A stretch of DNA of 51,408 nt, taken from NCBI GenBank assembly GCA_017512885.1, contig JAFWEP010000041.1, positions 1 to 51,408 on the forward strand, written 5' to 3'. This DNA is from Erysipelotrichaceae bacterium (GTDB taxonomy: Bacteria > Bacillota_I > Bacilli_A > Erysipelotrichales > Erysipelotrichaceae). This document shows positions 3 to 16,700 of the stretch, in pieces (positions within the stretch are counted from its first letter, which is position 1; every line of letters starts with the position of its first letter). The position numbers and the translations under genes are program-made. The notes beneath the pieces are model-generated. The model did no database searches. It saw only the letters and a program-made list of their open reading frames with translations, and was not told the origin of the DNA.

Positions 3-1958
3 TCCGATCCGAAGAGCACCAACGTCACTACCGGCATCGCCAACGCGATCAGCGGCACCGCTGTCGTCAAGGACGCTGCAGGCAATGACGTCACCGCTCA
101 GTTCGAGGTCGCTACCGAAGACGGCAAGCTGGTCATTCGTCCGGCTGAAGTCACGATCACCGCTGAAGACAAGACCAAGGTCTACGGCGATAATGATCCG
201 CAGCTCACCGCAAAGGTCACCGGCCTGGTCAACGGTGAATCCGAAGATCTGATCACTTACTCGCTCTCCAGAGCAGAAGGTGAAACGGTCGAAGGAAGCC
301 CGTATGTGATCAGCGTCACTGCCGAAGAGAAACAGGGCAACTACACCGTGAAGACGGTCCCGGCAGAGCTGACCATCACCGCCCGTGATATCTCCGATGA
401 GGATCTGGGCGTCACGGTCTCCGATCCGGAAGACACCGTTTATAACGGCAAGGAACAGAAACAGCCTGTCACCGTTACCAGCGAAAAGGGCACAGCTCTT
501 ACCGAAGGTACGGATTACGAAGTCAGCTACAGTGATAACGTCACCAATGTCGGTACGGTCACGGTCACGGTCACCGGTAAGGGCAACTACACCGGCACCG
601 TAACAAAGACCTACCAGATCACTCCGGCTGAAGTCACGATCACCGCTGAAGACAAGACCAAGGTCTACGGCGATGAAGATCCCGAACTGACAGCTGCCAT
701 CGAAGGTCTGATGGATGGTGATCTGGAAAGCCTGATCAAGTACCTCCTTGAAAGGACTGAAGGAGAAGAAGTTGCTGAAAGTCCGTATGACATCAATGTC
801 ACTGCTGCTGAACGTCAGGGCAACTATACTGTCAAGACGGTCAAGGGCAAGCTGACCATCACTGCCCGTGACATCTCTCTGGAAGAGAGCGGTATCACTG
901 TTGAAGCTCCGAAGAATGTAACTTACAACGGTCAGGAACAGAAACAGAAACCTGTCGTCACCGATAAGGACGGCAAGAAACTCGTCGAAGGAATTGACTA
1001 CGAACTGACTTACAGTGATGATACGACCAATGCCGGTACGGTAACCGTTACCGTCAGCGGCAAGGGCAACTACACCGGCAGTCTCGAAACGAGCTACCGG
1101 ATCGAACCCGCCAAGGTCACCGTCACTGCTGATGACAAGTCCAAGGACAACGGCGCAGATGATCCGGAATTCACGGTCAGGATCGAAGGTCTCGTCAATA
1201 ACGAACCGGAATCCCTGATCAAGTACACGATCAGCAGAACAGCCGGAGAAAACGCCGGAACCTACGCGATCACACCGAGCGGCGATGCGCTGCAGGGCAA
1301 CTATGAAGTTACCTTCGTTGCCGGCACGCTGACGGTTGCGGAACCTGTTCCGACCCCAACGCCGACCCCGACTCCCACTCCGACTCCGGAACCGGCAGTC
1401 GTTCCGACTCCCACTCCGGTCGATCCGGAACCTGTACCGACCCCGACGCCTGCCCCGGCTCCTACGCCGAGACCGGCACCGGCCCCGACACCGGTACCGA
1501 CTCCGACTCCCACTCCGGAGCCCACCCCGACACCTACACCGTCTCCGACTCCGACCCCGACCGCTGAACCGATCGATGATCCGGATGTCCCGTTAGATGA
1601 CGGTGCTTCCTGGGCAGTAGCGAACCTGGTCCTGACCGGCGTTACCACGCTGACCGGACTGGGCATGCTGTGGACATTCCTCAAGAAGAAGAAAGATGAG
1701 GAAGAAGCAGAAGAGGCCAAGAGATCCGTACAGAGCGAGGAAGAAAACGACAACAAGCGTAAGAAGTCCAAGCTCCTGGGTCTGATCCCGCCGATCGCTT
1801 CCATCATCCTGTTCATCCTGACCGAAGATATGACGACGACTCCGACGCTCTTCGACAGATGGACGCTGCTCACGGCTGTCTTCACGCTCAGTAACTTTGC
1901 CCTGGCTTACCTGACCAGAAACAAGGATAACGAGAGCGAAGAAGAGAAAGCCGCCTAA
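3..1958 (+). CDS. MBG-repeat cell-surface protein, C-terminal part (5' end outside window)
   Basis: The reading frame is open from the left edge, so only the C-terminal part is present. It consists of alternating MBG-type beta domains (signature [14 protein letters not shown]) and [14 protein letters not shown]-type domains, which repeat with a period of 483 nt (161 residues). A long Pro-Thr-rich stalk follows (about 1340-1560), the usual wall-spanning element. The protein then ends in a three-helix block: [10 protein letters not shown] (TM1), [17 protein letters not shown] (TM2) and [20 protein letters not shown] (TM3), with Lys/Glu-rich linkers and an acidic tail. There is no LPXTG motif. 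The same block ends the protein at 2712-5828. MBG domains are common in adhesins of Gram-positive bacteria, so a surface or adhesive role is inferred. The ligand is unknown. Confidence 0.85.
141..1340 (+). repeat. 483-nt direct repeats encoding two-domain adhesin units
   Basis: Copies begin at 141, 624 and 1107, exactly 483 nt (161 codons) apart; the third is incomplete at its 3' side. The first 51 nt of copies 1 and 2 are identical at DNA level, whereas copy 3 is diverged. Each unit encodes one MBG-type and one YNG-type domain. Identity at silent positions points to recent duplication or gene conversion, and the array probably extends left of the window. Confidence 0.8.
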
Positions 1959-2054: not shown

Positions 2055-2089
2055 TGTGATGCATCCTGTGATTCCTTCTCTTCTAAAAT
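2055..2089 (+). promoter_or_regulatory. Direct-repeat promoter of the small secreted protein gene
   Basis: TGTGAT at 2055-2060 and TGTGAT at 2067-2072 are separated by GCATCC. Eleven bases downstream is a -10-like TAAAAT at 2084-2089. The repeats flank the expected -35 position (GCATCC), which is far from consensus, so an activator binding the repeats is plausible. The same layout precedes the genes at 2712 and 13736. Confidence 0.55.
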
Positions 2090-2113
2090 GGAGACAGCGA
2101 AGGAGGAATATCT

Positions 2114-2551
2114 ATGAAAAGATACAAAACGACAGCTGCCCTGATCCTGACGACTGCATTGCTCTTTCCGGGGATGACTCCTCAGCTCAGTGAAAAGATC
2201 GAAGAAGGGGAGGTGGCTGAATTCGAAAAAACGACTGTCAATGACCTTTACGGGATAGCTGAGATCTACATCGATGATGAACTGATCGAGACACAGATCC
2301 TGCCAAATGTGCTGAATAACGAGGAAATGCTGCGAAAAGGATGCATCTCCGCCGGAAAAACGATGAAACGCAACGGTATCCAGCAGTTAACACTGGAAGC
2401 TGCGACGCTGAACTTGGACGGAGAGAGGACGGAGATCATGATCCCAGATGCTCATAAAGCAGAGCTGGTATTCAAAGCAGATAAGGATCTGGGAGGGGAG
2501 GTAGAAGCAAGATTCTACTTCATTACTACGGAAGAAGCTGAAAACATATAG
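2114..2551 (+). CDS. Small secreted protein of unknown function
   Basis: This is a 145-residue protein that I do not recognise. The start has a good ribosome binding site (GGAGGA). An N-terminal signal sequence is visible (MKRYKTTAALILTTALLFPG), followed by a mostly charged mature part with alternating beta-like segments (EIYIDDELIETQILP, RTEIMIPDAHKAELVF). No lipobox, membrane helix or anchor is seen. It lies between two surface-protein genes, has its own terminator, and its promoter resembles that of the next gene, so it may be produced together with the surface proteins. The function is unknown. Confidence 0.7.
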   Translation: MKRYKTTAALILTTALLFPGMTPQLSEKIEEGEVAEFEKTTVNDLYGIAEIYIDDELIETQILPNVLNNEEMLRKGCISAGKTMKRNGIQQLTLEAATLNLDGERTEIMIPDAHKAELVFKADKDLGGEVEARFYFITTEEAENI

Positions 2552-2573
2552 GAAAACAGAGAAAAAAGACAAG

Positions 2574-2598
2574 ACCTTCCGGATAACCGGAAGGTTTT
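2574..2598 (+). terminator. Rho-independent terminator
   Basis: ACCTTCCGG (2574-2582) and CCGGAAGGT (2587-2595) form a 9-bp stem with an ATAA loop, followed by TTTT. It closes the gene at 2114-2551. Confidence 0.85.
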
Positions 2599-2643
2599 CA
2601 TTATCATCAAAAAAATCATAGAATTACGCTAAAACCTATTTTC

Positions 2644-2678
2644 TGTGACTAATTTTGTGATTATACGACCTGTATTAT
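2644..2678 (+). promoter_or_regulatory. Direct-repeat promoter of the 1038-residue surface protein gene
   Basis: TGTGAC at 2644-2649, a six-base spacer, TGTGAT at 2656-2661, eleven bases, then TATTAT at 2673-2678. The spacing matches exactly the elements at 2055-2089 and 13585-13619. Confidence 0.6.
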
Positions 2679-2711
2679 GAGGGTGTAAAAAGAAATGGGA
2701 GGAAATAAACC

Positions 2712-5700
2712 ATGTTAGCAAAGAAGTCCTGGAAACAATTACTGATCGTTCTCCTCGTCACCGTCCTGATGGTCCGGGAGATCCCCTTCACTGTCAAAGC
2801 CGATGAATTCACCAACGAAGCAGCAGTCGAGGTCCAGGAAGATGCTGAGGCCTCCAAAAAAGAACAGATCTCCGAAGAGATCACTGTCGAAGTAAAAGAA
2901 GAAGCTCCGGCAGAAAACATCGTTGAAGAAAAGGTTCAGGAAGAAGTTCCTGCCGAAGAACCCCAGAAGGCTGAAGTGATCGCCGAAGTTCCTTCCGAAG
3001 AAAAGAAGGAAGAAGAAAAGATCGAGATCGCTGAAATCAAGATCGAAGAAGCTCCGATCCTGGAAGAAAAGAAAGAAGAAGCAGTCATCGAAGTCGCTGT
3101 TGAAGAAAAGAAAGAAGAAGCAGTGGCTGAGATCGTCGAAGAAAAGAAAGCCGAAGCAGTCATCGAAGTTCCTGCTGAAGAAAAGAAAGAAGAAGCAGTC
3201 ATCGAAGTCGCTGTTGAAGAAAAGAAAGAAGAAGCAGTGGCTGAGATCGTCGAAGAAAAGGCTGCAGTCGTTGAGACTCCGGCTCCGATGAAACTGATGA
3301 GCGTCGCTCCGGTCCAGGAAGCTCCGGCTGTCGAGACCTTCAAGGTCACCTGGAAGGACGAAGACGGAACGGTCCTGACAGTTACCGAAGTTGAAAAGGG
3401 TCAGATCGCTGAATATCCCTACGAACTGCCGAGCAAGGAAGCTACCGCTCAGTACACCTACAGTTTCAAGGCCTGGTCCCCGAAACTCGCAGCCGTCACC
3501 AGCAACAAGACCTACAAAGCCACCTACACGCAGACCGCGAAGAAATACAACGTCACCGTATACTTCGACAACATCCGCAACACCAACGGTACGGTCGTGA
3601 CCAAGATGAACCCGGTCCAGTCTGTCTCCGCAAACAGCAGCTGGTCCTTCACCCAGAAGAAACTGGACAACCAGATCCCGTCCAAGGACTTCAGCGTCGG
3701 TGGTGTCCGCTACATCTACACCGGCAGCTGGCAGTACGCTGACGGCACCGCCTTCGTCCCGCCGATGACTGTCAAAGGTTCGGAACTCTCCGGCGATGTC
3801 GAGATCCACATCTCCCCGATCTACGAAGAGATCCGCCAGGCTCATCTGGACTACCGCTACATCGACAACATCTCCACCGGTTCCGGTTCCTGGTACAACG
3901 TAGATTCCTGTACCACCTTCAGCCACACCTTCAAACAGCCCGAAGGACAGCCCCACTACCAGTTCGTCGAATGGCTCTGCCAGGATGGAACTTCCTACCA
4001 GCAGGGTGAGACCTTCCACATCAACTTCGCCGATCTCTCCGGCGATACCACGATCCTGACCTACGCCATGTGGCAGCCCTCCGTCACCGTCAACTACTAC
4101 AAGAACTCCACGCTTCTGAAGAGCGTTGAAAACTTCGAAGGTATCGAGCTGTATGCCTACGAAGCGGAAGACGAAGACGTCAACTGCTTCGCCGGCTGGT
4201 ACGATGCCGATGGCAACAGGATCTCCGAAGATCAGATCTACGCAGCTCCGGCAGTCACCTCTGCAGCGAACAGCGCGATCACGATCAACGTCTACGCCCG
4301 CTACCTGACCTCCCGCTCGGTCCTGAAAGTCTGGGACGACGCCGATGATCAGGACGGCTACCGTACGGACAGCGTCAGAGTCCAGCTCACCGCTAACGGA
4401 CAGGCCCTGGCCGAAGAAGAACTGAACGAAGACAATCACTGGTTCCACAAGTTCGAAGGCCTGGCAGCTTACGATGAGAACGGCAGACTGATCGACTATC
4501 AGATCGATGAGATCAGCGAAGTCGCCGAATACAGCAAGTCCGCAGCACAGAACGAAGAAGACCTGACCAACACGGTCATCACCAACTCCCACACTCCCGA
4601 AGAGATCGAAGTCCTGATCCGCAAGGTCTGGAACGACTCCGACAACAAAGACGGCATCCGTCCCCTCAGTATCCTGGTCCACCTGCTGGCCAACGGCGAA
4701 GAGATCGCCGAAGCCGAACTGAACGAAGAAAGCGACTGGACCTACAGCTTCTCCGATCTGGCAAAGAACCAGGCCGGCAATGAGATCGAATACACGATCG
4801 AAGAGACCTCCAGCGAAGGTTATCGCAGCGAGATCCGTGGAAACCATAAGGAAGGCTTCGTGATCACGAACTCCCACGATGCACACGCTTCCTACACCGT
4901 CAACTACTACCAGCAGAACGAAGACGGCAGCTACGGCCTGCAGAGCTCCGAAAGCTATAAGGTCCTGGCTGATGAAGAAGTCACTGTTGAAGCAAAAGAA
5001 TTCGAAGGATTCACCTTCAACGAAGAAAAGTCCCAGCTGGGCGGCATCGCTCTCCTGGATGACAGCCTGGTCCTGAACCTCTACTACGACCGCGAAGTCG
5101 AAGAGGTCATCGACATCGAAGAACCGATCGTAACTCCCGAACCGATCGTTGAAGAAGAGACCCCGGTCATCGTCATCGAAGAACCGACGGAAACTCCGGA
5201 ACCGGTCGTAACTCCCGAACCGATCGAAGAAGAAGCTCCGGTGATCGTTGAAGAAGAGACCCCGGCTGCTGAAGAAGCTCCGGTGATCGTCGAAGAAGCC
5301 CCGGTCAGAGAAGAAGCTCCCTACATCGCTCCGGCCATCATCAACAACACTCCCGCAGCTCCCTCGGCACCGGTCGAAGAAGTCCTGATCGAAGAAGTCA
5401 TCGAAAACGAACTGCCGCTGGCTGAACCGGAAATGAACGAAGTCAACGAAGAGATCGTCGAGATCGAAGAAGCAGAAATGCCGCTCGCTGAATACGAAGG
5501 TTCCTGGGCACTGATCAACCTGCTCTGCACGATCGGCTCCATCCTGGTAGCGCTGCTGATGATCATCACCGCTTACCGCAAGGAAGAAGACGAAGAGGAA
5601 GAAGACGAAGAAAGACGCAGCTTCCGCTCCCGCAAGCTCCTCGGCATCCTGCCGGCGCTGGCTTCCCTGATCATCTTCCTGCTCACTGAAAACATGGCGA

Positions 5701-5828
5701 ACCCGATGGTCCTGACCGACAGATGGACGCTCCTGATGGTCCTGATCCTGGTCGTCAGCCTCCTGGCCGCCTTCCTCACCCGCAACAAGGACAACGACGA
5801 AGAAGAAAAGGAAGTCGTCGCTGCTTAA
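2712..5828 (+). CDS. Cna_B/MucBP-type surface protein with a three-helix C-terminal membrane module
   Basis: A signal peptide (residues 1-30) is followed by a Glu/Lys/Val-rich region to about residue 195 that includes a 38-residue repeat. InlB-like beta domains follow (about 209-270 and onward). Two Cna_B domains start at VLKVWDDADDQDGYR (about 536) and IRKVWNDSDNKDGIRP (about 632). A MucBP-like segment (SYTVNYYQQNEDGSYG) sits near 726, then a Glu/Pro-rich stalk (800-930). The C-terminus has three hydrophobic helices near 931-955, 975-995 and 1003-1025, with an acidic linker, and no LPXTG. Cna_B domains usually carry Lys-Asn isopeptide bonds and form rigid stalks. A surface adhesin anchored directly in the membrane is inferred. 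The ATG has a GGAGGAAAT ribosome binding site. Confidence 0.85.
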   Translation: MLAKKSWKQLLIVLLVTVLMVREIPFTVKADEFTNEAAVEVQEDAEASKKEQISEEITVEVKEEAPAENIVEEKVQEEVPAEEPQKAEVIAEVPSEEKKEEEKIEIAEIKIEEAPILEEKKEEAVIEVAVEEKKEEAVAEIVEEKKAEAVIEVPAEEKKEEAVIEVAVEEKKEEAVAEIVEEKAAVVETPAPMKLMSVAPVQEAPAVETFKVTWKDEDGTVLTVTEVEKGQIAEYPYELPSKEATAQYTYSFKAWSPKLAAVTSNKTYKATYTQTAKKYNVTVYFDNIRNTNGTVVTKMNPVQSVSANSSWSFTQKKLDNQIPSKDFSVGGVRYIYTGSWQYADGTAFVPPMTVKGSELSGDVEIHISPIYEEIRQAHLDYRYIDNISTGSGSWYNVDSCTTFSHTFKQPEGQPHYQFVEWLCQDGTSYQQGETFHINFADLSGDTTILTYAMWQPSVTVNYYKNSTLLKSVENFEGIELYAYEAEDEDVNCFAGWYDADGNRISEDQIYAAPAVTSAANSAITINVYARYLTSRSVLKVWDDADDQDGYRTDSVRVQLTANGQALAEEELNEDNHWFHKFEGLAAYDENGRLIDYQIDEISEVAEYSKSAAQNEEDLTNTVITNSHTPEEIEVLIRKVWNDSDNKDGIRPLSILVHLLANGEEIAEAELNEESDWTYSFSDLAKNQAGNEIEYTIEETSSEGYRSEIRGNHKEGFVITNSHDAHASYTVNYYQQNEDGSYGLQSSESYKVLADEEVTVEAKEFEGFTFNEEKSQLGGIALLDDSLVLNLYYDREVEEVIDIEEPIVTPEPIVEEETPVIVIEEPTETPEPVVTPEPIEEEAPVIVEEETPAAEEAPVIVEEAPVREEAPYIAPAIINNTPAAPSAPVEEVLIEEVIENELPLAEPEMNEVNEEIVEIEEAEMPLAEYEGSWALINLLCTIGSILVALLMIITAYRKEEDEEEEDEERRSFRSRKLLGILPALASLIIFLLTENMANPMVLTDRWTLLMVLILVVSLLAAFLTRNKDNDEEEKEVVAA
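3063..3261 (+). repeat. 114-nt tandem repeat coding a Glu/Lys/Val-rich spacer
   Basis: The copies start at 3063 and 3177, 114 nt (38 codons) apart, with near-identical DNA. They encode EEKKEEAVIEV-type units close to the N-terminus of the surface protein. Copy number may vary between strains. Confidence 0.75.
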
Positions 5829-5897
5829 GAAGAATAGAAGAAAGGATAAATCAATAAGAGTAAGAGAAACAGAAGAAAGTCAGAAAGAGATGAATGC

Positions 5898-5923
5898 AGG
5901 GCCGCGGGAGACCGCGGCCTTTG
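5898..5923 (+). terminator. Rho-independent terminator
   Basis: GGCCGCGG (5900-5907) and CCGCGGCC (5912-5919) form a perfect 8-bp GC stem with a GAGA loop, followed by TTTGCCT. The T tract is short, but the stem is strong. Confidence 0.75.
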
Positions 5924-5967
5924 CCTGTCTCAGGATGAGCGTCACAAAGCAAAGAAAATTTTAAAAA

Positions 5968-6010
5968 TGTGATCGATCCCTGTGATTGAAGAATCGAGCT
6001 GTACTATAAT
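5968..6010 (+). promoter_or_regulatory. Promoter of the pilus-like operon with variant TGTGAT repeats
   Basis: TATAAT at 6005-6010 is a consensus -10. TGTGAT occurs at 5968-5973 and 5981-5986; the second copy lies 18 bases before the -10 and may serve as the -35. The repeat spacer is seven bases rather than six and the distance to the -10 is longer than at 2055, 2644 and 13585, so this is a related but different arrangement. Confidence 0.5.
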
Positions 6011-6027
6011 AAAAAAGAGGTCATTTT

Positions 6028-6318
6028 ATGACAGAACAGATCAAAAGAATAAAGACATACGAAGAAATGACAGACAGGGCTTTTGCCCTGCTGAACCGGT
6101 ATGAAGAGGATCTGGAAGCTCTGGAAGAGTTCCGGGAACTGCTGAAGGAACTGGAGACCTACTATACCGGTCCGCTGTGGAAGAAGGACTTCGCAGACGA
6201 TGAAGCCGGAAAACTGCCGGAGGAACTGAAGAGGGGCGTCCTTTCCGAGGATGCGCTGGCAGATCTGCTGGATCGGGCCAAAGAAGTCCGGGAAGCATAC
6301 CTGGAGGCTCTGAAATAG
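6028..6318 (+). CDS. DUF4298 family protein
   Basis: This 96-residue soluble, mostly helical and acidic protein has the DUF4298 signature near its C-terminus: ELETYYTGPLWKKDFADDEAG followed by KLPEELKRGVLSEDAL. No function is established for the family as far as I know. It has an AGAGGT ribosome binding site and is the first gene after the 6005 promoter. The next gene starts seven bases after its stop, so it heads the long operon with the pilus-like genes. Confidence 0.8.
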   Translation: MTEQIKRIKTYEEMTDRAFALLNRYEEDLEALEEFRELLKELETYYTGPLWKKDFADDEAGKLPEELKRGVLSEDALADLLDRAKEVREAYLEALK

Positions 6319-6325
6319 AACAGCC

Positions 6326-7258
6326 ATGAAGAAAGATCTGAAGCTTCACACAGCGCTGCTGTGTGCATTGCTGGTGCTGCTTTGTGCCTGCGGGGAAGGG
6401 GAGACGCCGGTCTCTTCGGCCATCGTGACCAGCAGCCCGGTACCTGTCGGGACATATGAGGCACCGCCTTTTGCGGGGTCCTCTTTTGATCCGGACGCTG
6501 CTGAAGGCAACGAACAGGTGCTGATCGATCTTTCGCATATCGAAGAAGGTTATCTGGGAGTCTCGGCAACATCCGATTCCCGTCTGAAGTTTCAGGTCCT
6601 GAAGGACGAAGAGAAATACAATTACGACATGGAAAACGACGGGACTCCGTCGATCTTTCCGCTGCAGTCGGGAGACGGTACTTATGTCTTCCGGGTCATG
6701 GAGAATATCGTCGACAAGAAGTATGCCGCGATCTACGAGACTTCGGCGCAGGTCGTGCTGAGCGATGAGTTCCAGCCCTATCTGCGGCCCAGTGATTATT
6801 CCAATTACAGTGAAGATTCGGCCTGTGTGGCCAAAGCGGCGGAACTGGCTGCTGCTGCCAACAGTCAGGTCGACGTCATCGAAAGCATCTATGCCTTCGT
6901 GACGAAGAATGTCACTTATGACCGGGAGAAAGCAGAGACGGTCCAGTCCGGCTATCTGCCGGTCCCGGATGAGACGCTCTCGACCGGCAAGGGGATCTGC
7001 TTCGACTATGCTTCCTTAGCAGCAGCGATGCTGCGGAGCCAGGGCATCCCCACCAAGATCGTCTTTGGTTATGTATCCCCGCGGGACGTATATCACGCCT
7101 GGAATATGTTCTATACCGAGGAGACCGGCTGGACGGTCGTGAAGTTCACGGCCGAAGATGACAGCTGGATCCGCCTGGATCTGACCTTTGCCGCTAACGG
7201 CAGAGATGCCAAGTTCATCGGTGACGGGGGCAATTACGCGGAAGTTTACCACTACTAG
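6326..7258 (+). CDS. Transglutaminase-like lipoprotein
   Basis: This 310-residue protein begins with a lipoprotein signal sequence; the lipobox ends in Cys 22 (LLCAC). The C-terminal third holds a transglutaminase-like (cysteine protease fold) domain: KGICFDYASLAAAMLRSQGIPT with Cys 225, YHAWNMF with His 257, and RLDLTFA with Asp 285 form the expected Cys-His-Asp triad. Such domains act as proteases, cross-linking enzymes or peptidoglycan-modifying enzymes; which applies here cannot be read from sequence. It acts outside the cell on the membrane. It sits directly upstream of the pilC-like gene (12-nt gap), so it may process or cross-link the extracellular product of that operon (inference). 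Its start has no clear Shine-Dalgarno sequence and is probably coupled to the upstream gene. Confidence 0.8.
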   Translation: MKKDLKLHTALLCALLVLLCACGEGETPVSSAIVTSSPVPVGTYEAPPFAGSSFDPDAAEGNEQVLIDLSHIEEGYLGVSATSDSRLKFQVLKDEEKYNYDMENDGTPSIFPLQSGDGTYVFRVMENIVDKKYAAIYETSAQVVLSDEFQPYLRPSDYSNYSEDSACVAKAAELAAAANSQVDVIESIYAFVTKNVTYDREKAETVQSGYLPVPDETLSTGKGICFDYASLAAAMLRSQGIPTKIVFGYVSPRDVYHAWNMFYTEETGWTVVKFTAEDDSWIRLDLTFAANGRDAKFIGDGGNYAEVYHY

Positions 7259-7270
7259 GGAGGAAAAGAT

Positions 7271-8314
7271 ATGGCGAATCAGAAGAAAATGGATCTCTTG
7301 GGAGTCAGCGCATTCTGCGAAAGTCTGGCCATGATGATCGGAGCCGGCATCCCCATCGGGGAAGCGGTCAGTCTGCTGGAACAGAAGGATGGAGACGGAG
7401 TACTGGCTTCCTCGATCCGAGAGATGGAAAAGAAGATCGGGGAAGGACATTCCCTGACGAAGGCGATGGAGGAATCCACACTCTTCCCGGAGTATGCCTT
7501 ACGGATGATCGAAGCCGGCGAGAGCACAGGCAAACTGGAAGATGTCCTGAAGCGTCTGTCTTCCTATTACCGGGAACAGAACACGATCCGGGAGAGACTG
7601 CGTTCGGTGCTGATCTATCCGGCAGCGATGATCGTGATGATCATCGTGGTGCTGGGGATCATGCTGAAGTGGGTGCTGCCGGCTTTCAGCGATGTCTATG
7701 AGACCCTGACCGGTTCTTTATCGGCCAGCAGTTACCGCTATATCGAATATGCCTATCTCTTCTGCCGCATCGCTCTGATCGTGATGATCGTACTGGTCGT
7801 AGTGATCGTGATCGGACTGCTGATGTATAACGGCAGCGGCAGGAAGACCGTGGAGAAGATCCTTTCGAAGAACCCCACCTGTGCGGCGATCCTGGAAGAC
7901 CTTGCGTTATACCGCTTTACATCGGCTTTTGAAGTGTTTTTAGCCAGCGGTGAGATGCAGGACCTGGCTCTGCTGAACGCCAAGGAGATGGCCGCTTATG
8001 AGCCGGTACAGGAGAAACTGGAGAAAGCGGCGAAGCGCATGGAGGAAGGCGTCGGCTTTGCCCAGGCAGCCAATGACGTTCAGCTCTATGAACCGATCTA
8101 CGGGAGGATGCTGATCCCGGGTGAGAGGAGCGGCAGTACCGACAGTGTACTGCACCGTCTGAACGAACTGCTGCTGGAGAGCACCAATCACTCCATCGAC
8201 CGTCTGATCAATACCGTGGAACCGCTGCTGTCCGGGATCCTGATGATCACCATCGCCGCTGCTCTCTTAAGTGTGATGCTGCCATTGATCGGCATCATGA
8301 ATTCGATCGGGTGA
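7271..8314 (+). CDS. Type II secretion/type IV pilus inner-membrane protein (PilC/GspF family)
   Basis: This 347-residue protein has two T2SSF domains (about residues 15-135 and 210-335). Family motifs are visible: MMIGAGIPIGEAVSLLEQ, GHSLTKAMEES.LFPEYALRMIEAGESTGKLEDVL and YREQNTIRERLRSVLIYPA. Three hydrophobic helices occur near 120-140, 165-185 and 310-335. PilC/GspF is the membrane platform on which the ATPase drives pilin assembly or retraction. It is slightly shorter than the usual roughly 400 residues. The ribosome binding site is GGGAGGAAAAG. It forms the core of the pilus-like cluster with the ATPase at 9840. Confidence 0.92.
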   Translation: MANQKKMDLLGVSAFCESLAMMIGAGIPIGEAVSLLEQKDGDGVLASSIREMEKKIGEGHSLTKAMEESTLFPEYALRMIEAGESTGKLEDVLKRLSSYYREQNTIRERLRSVLIYPAAMIVMIIVVLGIMLKWVLPAFSDVYETLTGSLSASSYRYIEYAYLFCRIALIVMIVLVVVIVIGLLMYNGSGRKTVEKILSKNPTCAAILEDLALYRFTSAFEVFLASGEMQDLALLNAKEMAAYEPVQEKLEKAAKRMEEGVGFAQAANDVQLYEPIYGRMLIPGERSGSTDSVLHRLNELLLESTNHSIDRLINTVEPLLSGILMITIAAALLSVMLPLIGIMNSIG

Positions 8315-8318
8315 ACCT

Positions 8319-8633
8319 ATGTATAAGGATCATAAGAGCACCTGGACCCGGATCCTTATACTCCTGCTGATCGTCCTCGGCTGTGCCGCAGGCTTTTTCG
8401 CGCTCCGTTCCCGTGCTTCGGCAGATGTCTCCGAAGAGAGTGCTTCGGCCATCAAGCGGGCAGTCGAACAGAGCGCTCTGCAGTGCTATGTCGTGGAAGG
8501 GGCGTATCCCCCGGATCTGGCCTATCTGCAGGAGAATTACGGCTTACGGGTCAACACGGATGCGTACTATATCGTCTATGAAGCCTATGCCCAGAACCAG
8601 CTGCCCAGTGTTCGGGTAGTGGCCAGAAAGTGA
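8319..8633 (+). CDS. Pseudopilin-like small membrane protein
   Basis: This 104-residue protein has an N-terminal membrane helix (about residues 10-28) and a short extracytoplasmic part. The segment AVEQSALQCYVVEGAYPPDLAYLQENYGL resembles GspG/major pseudopilins, in which a helix leads to a conserved YP.DL..L motif. A canonical prepilin peptidase site (G before FTLIE) is absent. The position right after pilC also fits a pilin. Its start lies four bases after the pilC stop. Confidence 0.65.
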   Translation: MYKDHKSTWTRILILLLIVLGCAAGFFALRSRASADVSEESASAIKRAVEQSALQCYVVEGAYPPDLAYLQENYGLRVNTDAYYIVYEAYAQNQLPSVRVVARK

Positions 8634-8640
8634 GGGTCCC

Positions 8641-9090
8641 ATGAAGAAAAGATCATATTCCGGACTTTATATCATTGCCCTCACGACTTTCTTTCTGGGC
8701 TGCTTCCTGCTGCTGGTCCTGTTCGGTACCCGTGCCTACCGGCAGGTAGCCCTGCGGCAGTCCTCCAACAATCAGCACCGGGCCTTGCTGTCGTACCTGC
8801 AGACGGTCACCCGCAGCTCGGAGACGGAGATCAGCACAGGAGAAGGGGAGTACGGCACGATGCTGACGGTAGCAGACGGTGATACCGGTTTCGGTACCCG
8901 CATCTACATCTATGAAGGCGAACTGGTCGAAGACTACGGGAAACTGAGCTCTTCGCTGATGCCAAAGGGGGCAACGGCGATCGCTGAGACAGCCCGCTTT
9001 GAGATTGAAGAGATCAGAGAGGACCTCCTGCAGATCCGGACCGACGAAGGCAGCGTCTATATCCATATCCGGGAAGGAGGCCGTCCATGA
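8641..9090 (+). CDS. DUF4860-like membrane protein of the pilus-like cluster
   Basis: This 149-residue protein has one N-terminal helix (YIIALTTFFLGCFLLLVLFGTRAYRQV) followed by a beta-rich outer domain. The overall form and the FGTRAYRQV segment fit DUF4860 proteins, which I know from Bacillota pilus-like clusters; the function is not established. It is likely a minor pseudopilin-like component. It overlaps the next gene by four bases, indicating translational coupling. Confidence 0.65.
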   Translation: MKKRSYSGLYIIALTTFFLGCFLLLVLFGTRAYRQVALRQSSNNQHRALLSYLQTVTRSSETEISTGEGEYGTMLTVADGDTGFGTRIYIYEGELVEDYGKLSSSLMPKGATAIAETARFEIEEIREDLLQIRTDEGSVYIHIREGGRP

Positions 9091-9509
9091 ATAAGAAACG
9101 TGATCTGGGCTTCCGGATCGAAGTGATCGTGATGCTGGTGGTATTCGTCGCTGTCATCGGGACGCTGACCCGGCTCTATGCCCAGGCGGATCTGGAGAGC
9201 CGGCGGGCCGCCCATCTCTCGGATGCGGTCATCCTGACAGCCAACGGAGCCGAAGTCTTCATGGCAGCGGAGGATGACGAAGAACTGCTCCGGATCCTCG
9301 ATGAAGCAAACAATGCCGAAAAGAAAGCAGATCATCTCCTGGAAGCCCGTTATGCCGAAGACTGCACGCCGGCAGCAGGCGGAGACTTCTGTCTGCAGAT
9401 CGAAACGAAGGACAGTGCTGATTTCCGGGAAGTCACTTTCCGGGTCAGTTATCAGGGAGAAGAGATCTATGAACTGACGACCGGCAAGGTCCGGGGAGGT
9501 GAACGATGA
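9087..9509 (+). CDS. Minor pseudopilin-like protein
   Basis: This 140-residue protein starts with a short basic leader and GFRIEVIVMLVVFVAVIGTL. This resembles a type IV prepilin start: Gly, then a hydrophobic residue, with a Glu near +4/+5 at the top of a hydrophobic helix. A soluble mixed alpha/beta part with two Cys follows. It starts four bases before the previous stop and overlaps the next gene by four bases. Assignment rests on form and context rather than a domain match. Confidence 0.6.
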   Translation: MNKKRDLGFRIEVIVMLVVFVAVIGTLTRLYAQADLESRRAAHLSDAVILTANGAEVFMAAEDDEELLRILDEANNAEKKADHLLEARYAEDCTPAAGGDFCLQIETKDSADFREVTFRVSYQGEEIYELTTGKVRGGER

Positions 9510-9838
9510 AACACGTACCGATCCGGCTGGGGCCGCTGGCTCTGCTGCTGACCGTGATCTCGATCTGCATGTCGACGCTGTCGATGCTGTCGTATGCCAA
9601 TGCGGAGGCCGATCTGCGGCTGGCACAGCGCTATGCCGAAACGACCCGCATCCGTTATGAACTGGAAAAGGAAGGACAGCAGTGGCTGCTCTCACACGGG
9701 AGCGGAGAGACTGTCCTGGAAAAAGAAGGTTACAAGCTGACCATCCGGCTGGATGCTTCCGGGCAGCCTCTGCTCTGGAAGATCGAGAGGGAATGGGAAG
9801 AGAATACAGAGATCCCCGATCTCTGGGAAGGAGATTAG
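9506..9838 (+). CDS. Minor pseudopilin-like protein
   Basis: This 110-residue protein has an N-terminal membrane helix (about residues 9-31), then an amphipathic helix (EADLRLAQRYAETTRIRYELEKEG) and a short beta part. The layout matches a minor pseudopilin. The start overlaps the preceding gene by four bases, and the ATPase gene begins two bases after its stop. No prepilin peptidase motif is clear. Confidence 0.55.
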   Translation: MKHVPIRLGPLALLLTVISICMSTLSMLSYANAEADLRLAQRYAETTRIRYELEKEGQQWLLSHGSGETVLEKEGYKLTIRLDASGQPLLWKIEREWEENTEIPDLWEGD

Positions 9839-9839
9839 T

Positions 9840-10895
9840 ATGAACATTCAGGAGATCCTGGCAACTGCCGTACAGACCGGTGCTTCCGACATCTTCCTGA
9901 TCGCCGGGCTTCCGGTGACCCTGAAATGCAAGGGCGAACACAACCGGCTCTCCGGTGACAGACTGCTGCCGGCAGGCATCGAGGAGCTCGTTAATCAGAT
10001 CTATGAGATCAGCGGAAGGGAAAGGACCAATCTGGAGAAGCATATCGACGATGACTTCTCCTTCTCGATCTCTCAGTTCGGCCGTTTCCGCGTCAATGTC
10101 TTCCGTCAGCGCGGTTCGCTGGCTGCGGTACTGCGGGTCATTCAGTTCGGTCTGCCGGATCCGAAGGCTCTGGGCATCCCGGAGAGCGTACTGTCTTTGG
10201 CAGACAATAAAAAGGGCCTGATCCTGGTCACCGGTTCCGCCGGTTCCGGAAAGTCCACGACCCTGGCCTGCATGATCGACCGTATCAACAAGTCCCGGGC
10301 CTGCCATATCATCACCATGGAGGACCCCATCGAGTATGTCCACCGTCATGACAAGGCGATCGTGACCCAGCGGGAGATCTTCATCGATACCCCCGGTTAT
10401 CTGGAATCCCTGCGCTCCGCCCTGCGGGAAAGCCCGGATGTCATCCTTCTGGGCGAGATGCGCGACTTCGATACGATCTCTGCAGCGATCACCGCTGCAG
10501 AGACCGGTACGCTGCTGTTCAGCACCCTGCACACCAACAGTGCTGCCAGCACCATCAACCGCATCATCGACGTCTTCCCGGCCTCTCAGCAGCAGCAGGT
10601 CAAGATCCAGCTGGCGCAGATCCTGAAAGGCGTCATCTGTCAGCAGCTGGTACCGGATGTGAACGGCGGTCTGGTGCCGGCCTTCGAGGTCCTGAAAGCC
10701 ACCCCGGCCGTCCAGAACATGATCCGTGACGGCAAGCTGCACCAGCTCGATTCGGTCATGCAGACAGGGGCAGCCGAAGGCATGTATACCATGGACAACA
10801 GTCTCCTCAAGTTCTGTCGGGAAGGAAGGATCTCCAAGGAGACCGCACTGCTGTCCTGCGTCCATTATGAACCCATGGCCAAGCGTCTGGGATAG
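9840..10895 (+). CDS. PilT-like type IV pilus ATPase
   Basis: This 351-residue ATPase is a close match to the PilT family. Walker A is GSAGSGKST (Lys 138). The HIITMEDPIEY box, LLGEMRD (Walker B region), AAETGTLLFSTLHTN and RIIDVFPASQQQQVK are all present. PilT powers pilus retraction and is normally accompanied by an assembly ATPase (PilB); here it is the only ATPase in the cluster. I chose ATG 9840 with GGAGAT upstream; an in-frame ATG at 9753 lies inside the previous gene and would add residues absent from the family. The gene is followed by a SARP-type regulator gene eight bases on. Confidence 0.92.
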   Translation: MNIQEILATAVQTGASDIFLIAGLPVTLKCKGEHNRLSGDRLLPAGIEELVNQIYEISGRERTNLEKHIDDDFSFSISQFGRFRVNVFRQRGSLAAVLRVIQFGLPDPKALGIPESVLSLADNKKGLILVTGSAGSGKSTTLACMIDRINKSRACHIITMEDPIEYVHRHDKAIVTQREIFIDTPGYLESLRSALRESPDVILLGEMRDFDTISAAITAAETGTLLFSTLHTNSAASTINRIIDVFPASQQQQVKIQLAQILKGVICQQLVPDVNGGLVPAFEVLKATPAVQNMIRDGKLHQLDSVMQTGAAEGMYTMDNSLLKFCREGRISKETALLSCVHYEPMAKRLG

Positions 10896-10903
10896 GAGGG
10901 TCT

Positions 10904-12097
10904 ATGTCGGAACTCTTACGGGTCAGGACCTTCGGGTCCTTCTCGATCAGCTACAAGGACAAGCTGATCAACGGCCGCAACAAGTCCAATGAATCGCGTT
11001 TCATCTACCTGATGCAGATCCTCCTGCATGCCGGAGAAGCCGGTGTCTCCAAGCAGGATCTGGAACAGGCGCTCTTCTACAACTCCGATCTGAAGAACGT
11101 CCATCATTCCACCCAGAGCGTCATCTACAACGCCAAGAAACATCTGCTGGCCCAGGGCCTGCCGGACATCAATTTCATCGAACAGCGTCACGGCGTCTAT
11201 TACTGGACTTCAGAGATCCCGGTCGAGGAAGATGCCCGGGTCTTCGAAAAGAAGATCGCCGAAGCCCGGGAAACCACGGCTCCGGCCAGACAGCAGCAGC
11301 TCTACCTCGATGCCATCCACCTCTATACCGGAGAATTCCTGGAACAGCAGGCTTCCGTGGTCTGGATCGCCCGGGAAGCCAGAAGGTACCGTGAGCTCTT
11401 CTGCGAATGCGTGGAAGAGACGGCGGAACTGCTGCGCAAGAGAGAGGAATGGTATCTGCTGGAAGACCTCGGCAAGTATGCCGCCAAGGTCTCGCCCTTT
11501 GCGGAATGGGAGACGCTGACCATGGAAGCACTGATCGCCATGAGCCGCTATGACGATGCGATCAACTTCTACGAAGAGACCTTCGATCACTACATGAGCA
11601 CGATCGGTCTCAAGCCTTCCGACCGCATGCAGAGCCTGATGGATCAGCTGGGAGAACAGATGAACCACAATTACGAGGTCCTCGACAGCATCCAGGAGAA
11701 GCTGATGGAAGAGGATCCCGGCAAACGGGGCGGTTACCTCTGTTCCTATCCGATCTTCCGCGGGATCTATCATCTGACCGAAAGGATGATGGAACGAGGC
11801 GGACAGTCGATCTATCTGATGCTGTGTACGATCGTCGACAGCAAGGGCAACCCGATGAAGGAAGGTCCGATGTTAGGAGAACTGAGCACCCGTCTCAAGG
11901 AAGCGATCTTCTCCTCCATCCGCCGCTCCGACGTCATCTCGCAGTACGGCCGGGGTCAGTTCCTGGTCCTGTTGTCCAACACCACCATGGAAGACTGTAA
12001 GATCGTCCAGAAGCGTATCAACGACAACTTCCTGATCCGCCACCAGCGGACCGGTGTCCACTACTATGTCAACAGCGTGTTCAGCCGCTATCAGTAA
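10904..12097 (+). CDS. SARP/BTAD-type regulator with degenerate GGDEF-like C-terminus
   Basis: In this 397-residue protein, residues 1-100 fit a winged-helix transcriptional regulator (LRVRTFGSFSI start, then QSVIYNAKKHL and the YYW wing). Residues 105-250 fit the bacterial transcriptional activator (BTAD) TPR-like domain. Residues about 275-390 resemble a GGDEF fold, but the active-site loop reads QYGRGQF (near 346) instead of GGDEF/GGEEF, so cyclase activity is unlikely. SARP proteins activate transcription by binding direct repeats next to promoters. It has an AGGAGG ribosome binding site and is the last but two gene of the pilus-like operon. Confidence 0.8.
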   Translation: MSELLRVRTFGSFSISYKDKLINGRNKSNESRFIYLMQILLHAGEAGVSKQDLEQALFYNSDLKNVHHSTQSVIYNAKKHLLAQGLPDINFIEQRHGVYYWTSEIPVEEDARVFEKKIAEARETTAPARQQQLYLDAIHLYTGEFLEQQASVVWIAREARRYRELFCECVEETAELLRKREEWYLLEDLGKYAAKVSPFAEWETLTMEALIAMSRYDDAINFYEETFDHYMSTIGLKPSDRMQSLMDQLGEQMNHNYEVLDSIQEKLMEEDPGKRGGYLCSYPIFRGIYHLTERMMERGGQSIYLMLCTIVDSKGNPMKEGPMLGELSTRLKEAIFSSIRRSDVISQYGRGQFLVLLSNTTMEDCKIVQKRINDNFLIRHQRTGVHYYVNSVFSRYQ

Positions 12098-12101
12098 GCC
12101 T

Positions 12102-12566
12102 ATGGAAAAGACACAGAGCTATATCGGCATCCTGAACGGTGTCGTCTGCTGTATCGATGAATACAACGGCTTTGACTGCAAGGGCAGTTTCTGGCATCAT
12201 TTCAGTACCGAACCGGTCCTCTTCGAGACCGGTACCGAACTGCTGATGAAACTGGAGAAGCTGTTCACCGAACTGAATTTCCCCCGGCCCGCCACCAACG
12301 AACGGCGCTTCCAGGAGTACCGCCGGATCTACCACCACGAAGAAAAGGAGAAAGTTATGAGCGATAAGGAAATGCTGATGCACCACGGAGAAGCAGGGAC
12401 CTTCATCATCCGCGTCCAGCAGAAACAGAACAGCAGCTGGCAGGGAAGGATCACCTGGGTCGATGAGGACAAGACCGTCTATTTCCGTTCGGTCTGGGAG
12501 ATGGTCAAACTGATCGACAATGCCCTGCAGAAGGGTGAAGAGGAAGAGAAAGTCAGCTGGGAATAA
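12102..12566 (+). CDS. Protein of unknown function linked to the SARP regulator
   Basis: This 154-residue soluble protein starts four bases after the SARP stop; an in-frame ATG at 12054 lies inside the SARP gene and is disfavoured. The C-terminal half carries a beta-rich module, TFIIRVQQKQNSSWQGRITW then KTVYFRSVWEMVKLIDNAL. I have the impression that similar modules occur beside SARP-type genes in Bacillota, but I know no function. The N-terminal part is acidic and has no signal peptide. A ligand-sensing or partner role for the regulator is inference only. Confidence 0.65.
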   Translation: MEKTQSYIGILNGVVCCIDEYNGFDCKGSFWHHFSTEPVLFETGTELLMKLEKLFTELNFPRPATNERRFQEYRRIYHHEEKEKVMSDKEMLMHHGEAGTFIIRVQQKQNSSWQGRITWVDEDKTVYFRSVWEMVKLIDNALQKGEEEEKVSWE

Positions 12567-12604
12567 TCTTGTCACTCAGGAAGGAAACGAATAGAATAGG
12601 GAAG

Positions 12605-13534
12605 ATGAAAAACAATATACCTGTAAAACAGGCTGTTCCCTATACCCACCTCTATAAGGTCAGCCGTTCCGATACCCTGCTGGAATTCCTGCTGAAGAAG
12701 ATGGACCTTTCCCGCAACAGCGTCAAGAGCCTGCTGGCTTCGCACAAAGTGCTGGTCAACGGCAATATGGTCTCGCAGTTCGACTATCCCTTAGCCAAAG
12801 ACGACGAGGTCAAGATCGCGAAGACCGCTCAGAAGGCGGCAGTACAGCCCAAGCTGAAGAAACATGTTGCTTCTCCGGTCAAAAAGATGATCATCTACGA
12901 AGATGAGGAACTGCTCGCCTTCAACAAGCCTGCCGGCCTCCTGTCGGTAGAGTCCGACAAGGAGACAGAATGCGCCTATAAGATGGCTGCCGATTATCTG
13001 CGGGAGAAGGGAGCGAAGAGCCGTCCCTACATCCTGCACCGCATCGACAAGGAGACTTCAGGGGTGCTGGTCTTTGCCAAGGACATCAAGCTGCATTCGA
13101 TGATGCGCATGAACTGGAACAGTTTCGTGACCCTGCGCGAATATATCGCCGTGGTCCGGGGCCATATGGAGGAGAAGAGCGGCACGATCGTCTCTTACCT
13201 TAAAGAGAACCAGAACAACCTCATCTATGTCAGCAGAGACCGTAACGGCAAGAAAGCGATCACCCACTATGAAGTCCTGGAAGAGAGTAAAGATTACTCT
13301 CTTCTGCGGGTAAAGATCGATACCGGCCGGAAGAACCAGATCCGGGTCCAGCTGGCTGATAAGGGTCACCCGATCGTCGGGGATGACAAGTACAGTGACG
13401 GGGAAGGGCCTCTGAAGCGTCTGGGCTTGCATGCCTCCGCCCTGGAGTTTAAACACCCCGTTACGAAGGAGATCGTCTCTTTAAGGGCTCCGATCCCGCA
13501 GTCCTTCCGGAATCTCTTCAAGAAAACGAAATAG
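12605..13534 (+). CDS. RluA-family pseudouridine synthase
   Basis: This 309-residue enzyme isomerises uridine to pseudouridine in rRNA or tRNA. An N-terminal S4 RNA-binding domain (LLEFLLKKMDLSRNSVKSLLASHKVLVNG) precedes the catalytic domain with the HRIDKETSG motif, whose Asp is the nucleophile (around residue 148). RKNQIRVQLADKGHPIVGDDKY is the second family signature. A TTG at 12569 would add 12 residues without a ribosome binding site, so the ATG at 12605 (AGGG upstream) is preferred. It is the last gene before a strong terminator. The exact target base is not predictable. Confidence 0.9.
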   Translation: MKNNIPVKQAVPYTHLYKVSRSDTLLEFLLKKMDLSRNSVKSLLASHKVLVNGNMVSQFDYPLAKDDEVKIAKTAQKAAVQPKLKKHVASPVKKMIIYEDEELLAFNKPAGLLSVESDKETECAYKMAADYLREKGAKSRPYILHRIDKETSGVLVFAKDIKLHSMMRMNWNSFVTLREYIAVVRGHMEEKSGTIVSYLKENQNNLIYVSRDRNGKKAITHYEVLEESKDYSLLRVKIDTGRKNQIRVQLADKGHPIVGDDKYSDGEGPLKRLGLHASALEFKHPVTKEIVSLRAPIPQSFRNLFKKTK

Positions 13535-13543
13535 CGAAACGAA

Positions 13544-13567
13544 GACTCTGCTGCAGAGTCTTTTTTT
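13544..13567 (+). terminator. Rho-independent terminator
   Basis: GACTCT and AGAGTC, with GCTGC between, form a perfect hairpin at 13544-13560 followed by seven T. It ends the operon that starts at 6028. Confidence 0.92.
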
Positions 13568-13584
13568 CGTTGAAAGGATGAAGC

Positions 13585-13619
13585 TGTGACGCATCCTGTG
13601 ACGGAAAGAGTCATAGAAT
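13585..13619 (+). promoter_or_regulatory. Direct-repeat promoter of the giant adhesin gene
   Basis: TGTGAC at 13585-13590, GCATCC, TGTGAC at 13597-13602, eleven bases, then TAGAAT at 13614-13619. The spacer GCATCC is identical to that at 2061-2066. The leader to the ATG at 13736 is about 110 nt. It contains an inverted repeat (TAGATAA-ATG-TTATCTA) and a small TGCT/AGCA hairpin before seven T at 13695-13701. Confidence 0.6.
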
Positions 13620-13735
13620 GATACTGGATAGTAGATAAATGTTATCTAGTATGCGAAAGAAAAAACTGCTAGAATGAAATTGCTGTATAGCACCTTTTTT
13701 TGGTATGTGACAAAGCGGTGTAGGAGGTCTCATTT

Positions 13736-16700
13736 ATGAAGAAGAAAGTCCTGACAGTCATACTGACTGGGTTAATGATCTTTCATATGCTGCCGGCCAA
13801 TGTATGGACGGTAGCGGCTGAAGATCAGCCGGCAGAAACACCGGTGAGCGAAGTGCCGGAAGAAACGACGCTGCCGGATACAGGAGGGGAGGACGACCCC
13901 GCCGATCCTCTCATAGAGGTCGAACCTCAGGAAACGGAAACGACGGAAAGCGGACCGAGCGAGAGCCCGGAAATCTCGCCGTTGCCGGCAGAAACGGAAG
14001 TTCCTGAAAAAGAGGAGATCCCGGAAGAGACGGCCGCTCCGCAAGCAACAGCCGTTCCGGAGATCAGAGAAGAGATCCCTGCAGAAACAGAAATGCCGGC
14101 GGAAGTCACGGAGACGGAAATGCCGGAAGAGACTGAAGAGCCGGCCGAGAGCGAACTCCCGGAAGAGACCCCGGAAGCGACGGAAAAGCCGGCAGAAGAG
14201 AAAGAACCGGCAACAGATATCTCCTCTCATCCGCTGGCGGAAACCTCTGCCAGTGAGGAAGAACCGCTGCTGGCACTGGATCAGCTGAGTCCGCGGACAC
14301 TGGCCCTTTTGGGCATGGCGCCGACGGGCATGCTGATGATGAAGAAGCCGAAACTGAACGCCGCTCCGGCGGGGTCTGATATTCCTACGGAAGGTCCGGT
14401 CACTTCAGATGACGGTAGTATGACGATCGACCGGGTCGCAGTCAAATGGCTGACACACAGCACGGGCAGCGATGAGCCGGCCGGGACCGGCACCTTATCC
14501 CTGGAGACCGACAGCAATGTCATCAGCAATCAGCAGTTCCAGATCGACTTTGCCCTTTCCGGCAAGGATGATCATGAACCGGGCACGATCGAGATCATCT
14601 TCCCGGCCTATCTGTGGAAGGACCGTTACGGCAATGAACCGGGCAACCTGACTCTGTCGGTCCCGGAAGAACCGGAGACCGGGGCGGATTTTGCCTGGAG
14701 AAGGGTCGGCGACAGTATCGTCATCACCAATGTGCGCCGCATCTCTCATGCCGCAAAATTCATGATCCAGGGCACTTTCCGGAACGTGAAGCCTTACGAC
14801 ATGGTTGACAAGGATGTTGCGGAAGGCTCGGAATACATAGATGCGGAATACACCGGACATTCCGGTCCTTTCAATGTGGTCATCGGTCTGACGACCAACA
14901 GCGATGAGTATGTCGCTTTGCGAAGCAACACCATCGATGCCGAGATCGATACGCATATCGAGGCTGCTTCAGCCACCAAGAGTGCCTACAATACTTCCCG
15001 CAGAGAGTATTATGTCTATCACACTGTGGAATCAGCCACCGCTCTGAACAAGGGCAATATGCCGGCAGAATTCCTGGAGCAGTTAGGAGGCGAAGCGGAT
15101 CAGTACAGTTTCGTTCGTTGGTATGTCTCCGGATCCGCGACCGGTTCCCAGCCGTTCCTGATGACGGTCAGTGACCGTTTTGACGGTTCCGTCATCCATT
15201 ACAAGGATGCCCTGCACGAAGACAGCGAGACGATCGAAGTCAACGGGCGCATGCTGGGGGTGCAGGGAGCGCTGGTCTATGATGAAGAGAGCGGTACGTA
15301 TTCTACGGGGAACGTCCTTTCCGAAGACGGACAGAACGTTACTGCCGTGATCTATGATGGTTACAATACCCTGGCCAAGTCTGCCTATGTCTGGACCGCC
15401 TACAAACAGAGCGATTTCCCGGAATCCGGGGATGAATACACGATCTCCAACTCTCAGAGAGTCGAAGTGACCGGCTGGGATGATCAGATCACGACGACGA
15501 AGGAAGCTGCAGCGACAGCGCCTTTCCGGATCCCGATCACCTACACGATCGTAAAAGTCTGGAATGACAGCAGCAATGCCAAAGAGCGCAGACCGCGTTC
15601 GCAGAGCTTCAACGTGAACTATACCGATGACAACGGTCTTCATTACGGATCGGAAACGCTGAGCGGAGGCGGCGACCGCTGGCAGACCAGCTGGAGCGAT
15701 GAAGGCAAGGAACGGAAATACTCTGTCAGCGAATACACGAATACGGATGCTTTCATGCGTCATATCATCGAAGAAAGCAAGCATTACGGAAACGATGAAT
15801 ACGGAAACTATGTCGAATACGATGAGTGGTTCTATACGCTGGAAAGACAGGAATATGATGCGGAAACACATACCTGGACAGCCACCAACAAGTACAATGA
15901 ACGGCATGTGAAACTGTATGAGATCCCCTTTACGGTACCTGCCAGAAGCGAATCTGCCTACAAGCGGACGAATTCCTATATCTATTCGAGCCGCCTGTCC
16001 AAGAATGACCGTGCTCTGAACATCCTGCGCCGCGGCGAAGACGTGATCGTCGATTATTATGTCTCCGGATCTGCCAGCACGTTGCCCTATACCTGGGATC
16101 CCGGCAAGGATGCCGCGCTGATCACCAGTTACGCCCAGAGACCGGTGACGCTGGAACTGGAAGACAACTATCGCGATGACGTACTGGGAGATGCGAAGAA
16201 CTCTCTGCTTTTCGACAGCCTGCGGCTGACCGTGGATGACGCGGAGATCGCCTATGTCACCCTGGCTGTGCCCTCTTTCTCCCAATACGGTCAGTGGGGA
16301 GCCAATGTCATCGGCGATGTCCCGAAAGAGGACTATGTCTACTATGGCTGGAGTTATAAAGAGATCTCGCCTGCTGATGCGCCGGATACGGTCCTGCTGG
16401 GCCTCTTAAACGGGGAATGGGTCGAATTCGCCCGTTTCCGCAAAGACGGCGGGAATTACCGGCTCACCACCGGCAACGGTGCGACCGCTGCTTCCGGCAG
16501 CCGGACAGTCAATCTCCCCTCAGGAGTGGAAAGAGTCAAGACGGTCCTGACGGTCCCGGCGGTGGATGCCTCTGATGAAGCGGCCTGGAAAGACCGCATC
16601 GACAGGGCTTCCATGTCCTATTCCGTAGGCATCCGCTTATTGGCAGATTCCGAAACGCTGCAGAAGCGCATGGAAGCGGTCTTTGCCCAGGATGACTATG

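Follow-up and report, generated by a model that had tools for sequence, protein, structure and literature searches.

The closest described relatives of the promoter element analyzed here are sites built from direct repeats. AfsR, a SARP, holds sigma region 4 and binds direct repeats that begin at -40 and -29 and overlie a poor -35; SARP repeats have a period of 11 or 22 bp (PMC10936776). The WalR box is TGTWAH-N5-TGTWAH (PMC4168254), and in Pho boxes CTGTCAT cores recur in direct orientation every 11 bp (PMC4415409).

We analyzed a 51,408-nucleotide contig of an Erysipelotrichaceae bacterium, the whole of which is referred to below as the window. An initial annotation had reported the pattern TGTGAY-N6-TGTGAY-N11-TANNAT at 2055-2089, 2644-2678 and 13585-13619, each time ahead of an exported-protein gene (2114, 2712 and 13736). 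All three sites lie exactly where it had placed them, and the genes start 24, 33 and 116 bp past the 35-mer. Features of the window, followed by the box-bearing genes on other contigs, are as follows:

306..1958 (+): FILTED surface protein, C-terminal part, with MBG domains; its start lies off the contig
2055..2072 (+): predicted activator box 1, TGTGATGCATCCTGTGAT, from pattern search, column comparison and weight matrix
2084..2089 (+): -10 hexamer TAAAAT, 11 bp past box 1, from the A2/T6 register at N11
2114..2551 (+): exported 145-aa protein of no known family, first gene after box 1
2644..2661 (+): predicted activator box 2, TGTGACTAATTTTGTGAT, with a divergent spacer, the weakest copy
2673..2678 (+): -10 hexamer TATTAT, 11 bp past box 2, from the N11 register
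2712..5828 (+): 1038-aa surface protein with Cna_B domains and a C-terminal FILTED domain
5968..5986 (+): variant box (N7), TGTGATCGATCCCTGTGAT, 5' of the pilus/SARP operon
6005-6010 (+): TATAAT, -10 of the variant box, 18 bp away
6028..10895 (+): operon from the DUF4298 protein to the T2SSE/PilT-type ATPase
6326-7258 (+): transglutaminase-like lipoprotein, in the operon
7271-8314 (+): T2SSF, in the operon
Between T2SSF and the ATPase (+): pilin-like proteins, in the operon
9753-10895 (+): T2SSE/PilT-type ATPase, in the operon
10904..12097 (+): SARP-type regulator with AfsR/EmbR-like winged helix, BTAD and degenerate GGDEF; candidate activator
13585..13602 (+): predicted activator box 3, TGTGACGCATCCTGTGAC
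13614..13619 (+): -10 hexamer TAGAAT, 11 bp past box 3, from the N11 register
13736..24688 (+): 3650-aa exported protein with FctA, Cna_B and DUF7601 isopeptide-type domains
Contig C30: 2424-aa FctA/List-Bact-repeat protein, with a FILTED match at and just past the frame end
Contigs C30 and C2: two further large exported box-gene products with cut ends
Contig C38: 3.1-kaa DUF285/FctA/Cna_B protein

The three sites in the window compare with an expectation of zero from 100 dinucleotide shuffles. The genome-wide search proposed in the annotation was run on all 2,094,466 bp and returned the same three strict matches, all in the window and all 5' of exported-protein genes, versus none for the reversed pattern in the whole 2.09-Mb genome. 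The annotation had named equal abundance inside genes and upstream of them as evidence against its reading; this is not the distribution found. With at most one mismatch, TGTGAY-N6-TGTGAY had 26 matches in the whole genome versus 16 in the control. Seven of the 26 are on the coding strand 5' of exported-protein genes and are spread over four contigs (window 2055, 2644 and 13585; C30:107869; C30:115574; C38:110547; C2:6439, minus strand), and the other 18 are nearly all within genes, at approximately the control level. A match at C38:124668 (TGTGATTCATAGTATGAC), before the gene C38:124801, is on the reverse strand with no matching -10 and was treated as chance.

From the seven copies, the full element is TRTGAY-GCATCC-TGTGAY-N11-NANNNT, in which the spacer is GCATCC in five copies, GCTTCC in one and TAATTT in one (site 2644). 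Searching for GCATCC with a loosened -10 found six GCATCC-type copies in the genome and none in the control. Exact TGTGAY pairs at N3-N10 numbered eight genome-wide and two in the control; promoter regions hold six of the eight (five at N6, one at N7), and the other two are intragenic. These genome-wide counts come from pattern searches, and a weight matrix was scanned over 190 kb of the genome: the seven sites scored 26.7-35.5 bits, the next-best place 17.5, and permuted matrices reached maxima of up to 19.4. When left out of the matrix, site 2644 scored 18.0, inside the permuted-matrix range; the case for this weakest and least certain copy comes from its -10, its position and the exactness of its half-sites. 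The box with intact spacing occurs essentially nowhere in the genome but at the seven exported-protein promoters, and we regard it as a genuine promoter box of a surface-protein regulon, narrowly defined and specific to this lineage.

At separations of up to 40 bp, direct TGTGAY pairs in 190 kb of the genome were found at N6 (five), N7 (one) and N36 (one). The half-site period is 12 bp in all seven copies (13 bp in the N7 variant), in line with the observation in the annotation that it exceeds the 11 bases of OmpR-type boxes. Hexamers at N11 are TAAAAT, TATTAT, TAGAAT, GATGAT, CAGGAT, TATCCT and CAGGAT. A2 and T6, the two most constrained positions of the sigma-A -10, are present in 7/7 hexamers at this offset versus at most 3/7 at the other offsets from 4 to 25. 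Direct repeats over a non-consensus -35 had also been described, and the N6 spacer, which is unlike TTGACA, indeed coincides exactly with where a -35 is expected, 17 bp ahead of the -10. With the -10 set at -12 to -7, the half-sites occupy approximately -41 to -36 and -29 to -24. The distance from box to ATG is 41-53 bp in five copies and 133-136 bp in two. Two long leaders (window 13603-13735 and L045:10566-10704) have in common a second block, AAACTGCTAGAATG, about 75 bp past the box; it resembles an extended -10 (TGCTAGAAT), and a second promoter is possible. Rfam searches of the window and flanking loci found only tRNAs and a lysine riboswitch, and a c-di-GMP riboswitch was absent.

The element can be read as an operator and a promoter combined, that is, a class II activator site at a sigma-A promoter. 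It would provide a usable -10 and no -35, and a winged-helix activator would bind the two direct TGTGAY half-sites, 12 bp apart, head to tail on one DNA face. Once bound, the activator would stand in for the -35 contact and bring in RNA polymerase, leading to joint production of FILTED proteins, isopeptide-domain giants and one small exported protein. Judging from the sequence, it is likely that class II activator sites at sigma-A promoters co-produce these exported surface proteins. We infer activation rather than repression, a dimer and sigma-A, the activator because the half-sites cover the -35 region as in PhoB, WalR-type and SARP activators. Several features argue against this reading: the GCATCC spacer is conserved beyond the need of two half-sites, a 12-bp period is unusual, C38:124801 has no forward box, and the -10 distance of the pilus-operon variant is 18 bp.

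Most box-bearing genes code for very large exported proteins with FILTED or isopeptide (Cna_B/FctA) domains, and every FILTED gene in the genome with its start on a contig has the box. Giant exported-protein genes lacking it are C38:124801, which codes for a related giant, and one on C35. One activator very probably turns on all seven of these exported surface proteins, most of them giant, together. The annotation's idea of one shared element for a surface-protein regulon is supported by these data, and the regulon is larger than it had envisaged (seven genes on four contigs). Contigs C30 (3' end), C2 and C24 (5' end) end in FILTED-type genes, with C30 and C2 sharing end sequence; these contigs may be one tandem adhesin cluster split by assembly at repeats. 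No regulator of giant isopeptide-domain/FILTED surface proteins is described in the literature searched, and searches of open-licence papers for FILTED proteins and for SARP regulators with pili in Firmicutes turned up nothing relevant. The box offers a handle on the timing of production of these proteins.

The N7 variant at 5968-5986 was missed by the initial annotation. It precedes an operon with the order DUF4298, transglutaminase-like lipoprotein, T2SSF, pilin-like proteins, T2SSE/PilT-type ATPase and SARP. Its mode of action may differ from that of the N6 boxes because its TATAAT, a strong one, is 18 bp downstream. In genome G170, TGTGAC-N6-TGTAAA is present 5' of the homologous pilus/SARP operon (L166:6361-6581), with no clear -10 at N11.

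The 10904 protein has the N-terminal winged helix and BTAD domain (PF03704, 3.2e-12) of SARP regulators. Its AlphaFold model matches EmbR and AfsR over residues 2-237 (Z 17-18; Foldseek E 2.8e-8 to the AfsR/EmbR fold), and the modelled C-terminus has a GGDEF fold (Z about 11). The signature GG(D/E)EF of active diguanylate cyclases is lost, with GRGQF at the aligned position. By its BTAD domain and its model, 10904 is a true SARP-type protein. A SARP with degenerate GGDEF is kept across family genomes and other metagenome-assembled genomes (MAGs). Among 196 family genomes, six have orthologs of at least 44% identity (G170, G175, G094, G018, G135 and G183), and all six have FILTED genes, which are present in only 28/196. 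SARP and FILTED genes are neighbours in G018, G183 and G135 and, with diverged SARPs, in G045, G111, G145, G032 and G116, and the order FILTED, lipoprotein, T2SSF, pilins, ATPase, SARP is common across several genera. Because of this co-occurrence and adjacency across genera, a functional link between SARP and FILTED genes is favored. The box also directs attention to this conserved neighbourhood of pilus, SARP-GGDEF and adhesin genes. Genes for RR-GGDEF-EAL, Hpt and GGDEF proteins stand in a row immediately 5' of a box-bearing FILTED-associated gene on C30 (L043:3914-7268), and similar RR/Hpt/GGDEF genes come after the SARP in G175, G094 and G018.

Among possible binders, we rank the SARP-GGDEF protein before a PhoB-like response regulator, and both before another protein. 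An AfsR-like 10904, modulated through its degenerate GGDEF by neighbouring c-di-GMP-type signalling proteins, is a credible binder, somewhat short of probable. The proposal of 10904 as regulator, already made in the annotation, has gained from its AfsR/EmbR and signature-less GGDEF folds, from FILTED genes in all genomes with orthologs of at least 44% identity (often as neighbours), from the downstream repeat at -29 as in AfsR, from the variant box before its own operon and from the signalling gene set 5' of the C30 box gene. However, the recognition helix (NxHHxxQSVIYNAKK) is near-identical in G170, G175, G094 and L031, and the strict box is absent from the L031 locus as well as from the first three, whose orthologs are 53-55% identical. 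FILTED genes of G175 and G094 have promoters with other sequences, and a period of 12 bp matches neither SARP repeats, normally 11 or 22 bp apart, nor OmpR-type sites (11 bp). The alternative that one of the five OmpR/PhoB-family response regulators in the genome (on C13, C31, C42, C18 and C4) binds the box, likeliest one of the three PhoB-like ones (C13, C31 and C18), is possible and less probable than the SARP. TGTGAY fits the TGT-N-A-Y form of PhoB (TGTCAY) and WalR (TGTWAH) half-sites, and these three are best matched by PhoB models, with RTxDTHI/RVVDDTL recognition helices, but known sites have an 11-bp period, none of the five is close to a gene with the box in the regions inspected, and none passes the curated PhoB or WalR cut-off (WalR/YycF NF040534). 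A wider proposal, that the SARP with degenerate GGDEF from this type IV-pilus-like operon controls the giant adhesins and its own pilus operon via the 12-bp-period box, which would couple adhesin transcription with cyclic-dinucleotide signalling outside Actinobacteria, is doubtful at present.

Two further explanations do without an activator site. An alternative sigma factor could read the element as a -35/-10 promoter with TGTGAYGCATCCTGTGAY as an extended -35, and GCATCC is exactly at the -35 position and conserved in 5-6 of the seven copies. This is quite improbable given that TAAAAT, TATTAT and TAGAAT resemble sigma-A -10 hexamers and one copy has an unrelated spacer; exact direct repeats are not known as a feature of sigma sites. 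Still less probable is a lack of any regulatory function, the boxes having only travelled with surface-protein genes as these were duplicated. Paralogy of several N-termini (MxKxRKILITxLVMxMAVREVPLTRI) and the tandem arrangement of the genes would fit this, but the genes downstream of the boxes belong to at least three unrelated N-terminal types. In addition, the box is not merely copied upstream DNA because mean pairwise identity is 84% in box columns versus 35% and 41% in the 30-bp flanks.

Outside the host genome, the strict box had 10 single matches in the 196 family genomes versus 3 in the control, mostly intragenic and none before a FILTED gene, and the GCATCC-box had one match, inside an ORF. 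Neither the SARP-ortholog genomes G170, G175 and G094 (strict box) nor three SARP loci of other MAGs had it. By these searches, the box lacks conservation across the family. Three genus mates have no FILTED genes, no SARP and no box, and the genome assembly is fragmented, which makes phylogenetic footprinting inside the genus impossible. A different conserved element, TTTTAGACTGAT, is common to FILTED promoters of G135, G175 and G018, with variants in G183 and G094, and lies near -40 (L096, L100, L105, L122 and L173). Other FILTED promoters (L091, L103, L104 and L112) have direct repeats of TTGACT or TATAAC with an 11-12 bp period, about 10 bp before a -10-like hexamer: TTGACT-N6-TTGACT-N10-TAGAAT in G094, TATAAC-N6-TATAAC-N10-TAAAGT in G186 and TATAAC-N5-TATAAC-N10-TATAGT in G046. 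Such a layout was present in 5/18 promoters versus 0.49 expected (0/500 shuffles reached 5), in a scan whose limits were picked after viewing the sequences. Use of the same layout with other half-sites may be taken as a tentative lead.

Compared with known systems, the box resembles the CRP site TGTGA-N6-TCACA in half-site letters and N6 spacing, but CRP sites are inverted repeats. A CRP-type palindrome was excluded by the absence of inverted TGTGAY pairs at spacers 0-30 in 190 kb; the box is a direct-repeat site because TGTGAY pairs are direct at N6/N7 and, within 40 bp, inverted only at N31. WalR/VicR boxes are similar in their direct hexamer repeats, related half-site and control of cell-surface genes, and differ in having N5 rather than N6 and no G at the fourth half-site position, so that TGTGAY-N6-TGTGAY falls outside TGTWAH-N5-TGTWAH. 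Like the E. coli Pho box, the element is 18 bp long with two direct TGTnAY half-sites before a -10 and does not need a -35; however, its half-site is TGTGAY rather than TGTCAY, its period of 12 bp departs from the 11 bp (10-11) of OmpR/PhoB-type sites, and no phosphate-gene link was seen. The Streptomyces afs box is similar in its two direct repeats in place of a poor -35 (starting at -40/-29 there and at about -41/-29 here), with the downstream repeat adjoining the -10, and here the cluster itself codes for a SARP-fold protein. In contrast to the afs box, the period is not 11 or 22 bp, the half-site is TGTGAY, the targets are surface proteins instead of antibiotic genes, and the SARP, here a candidate binder, has a degenerate GGDEF domain. 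The 12-bp period is a consistent departure from PhoB, WalR and SARP sites; this type of control is already known, and the period and the candidate SARP-GGDEF regulator are what is unusual.
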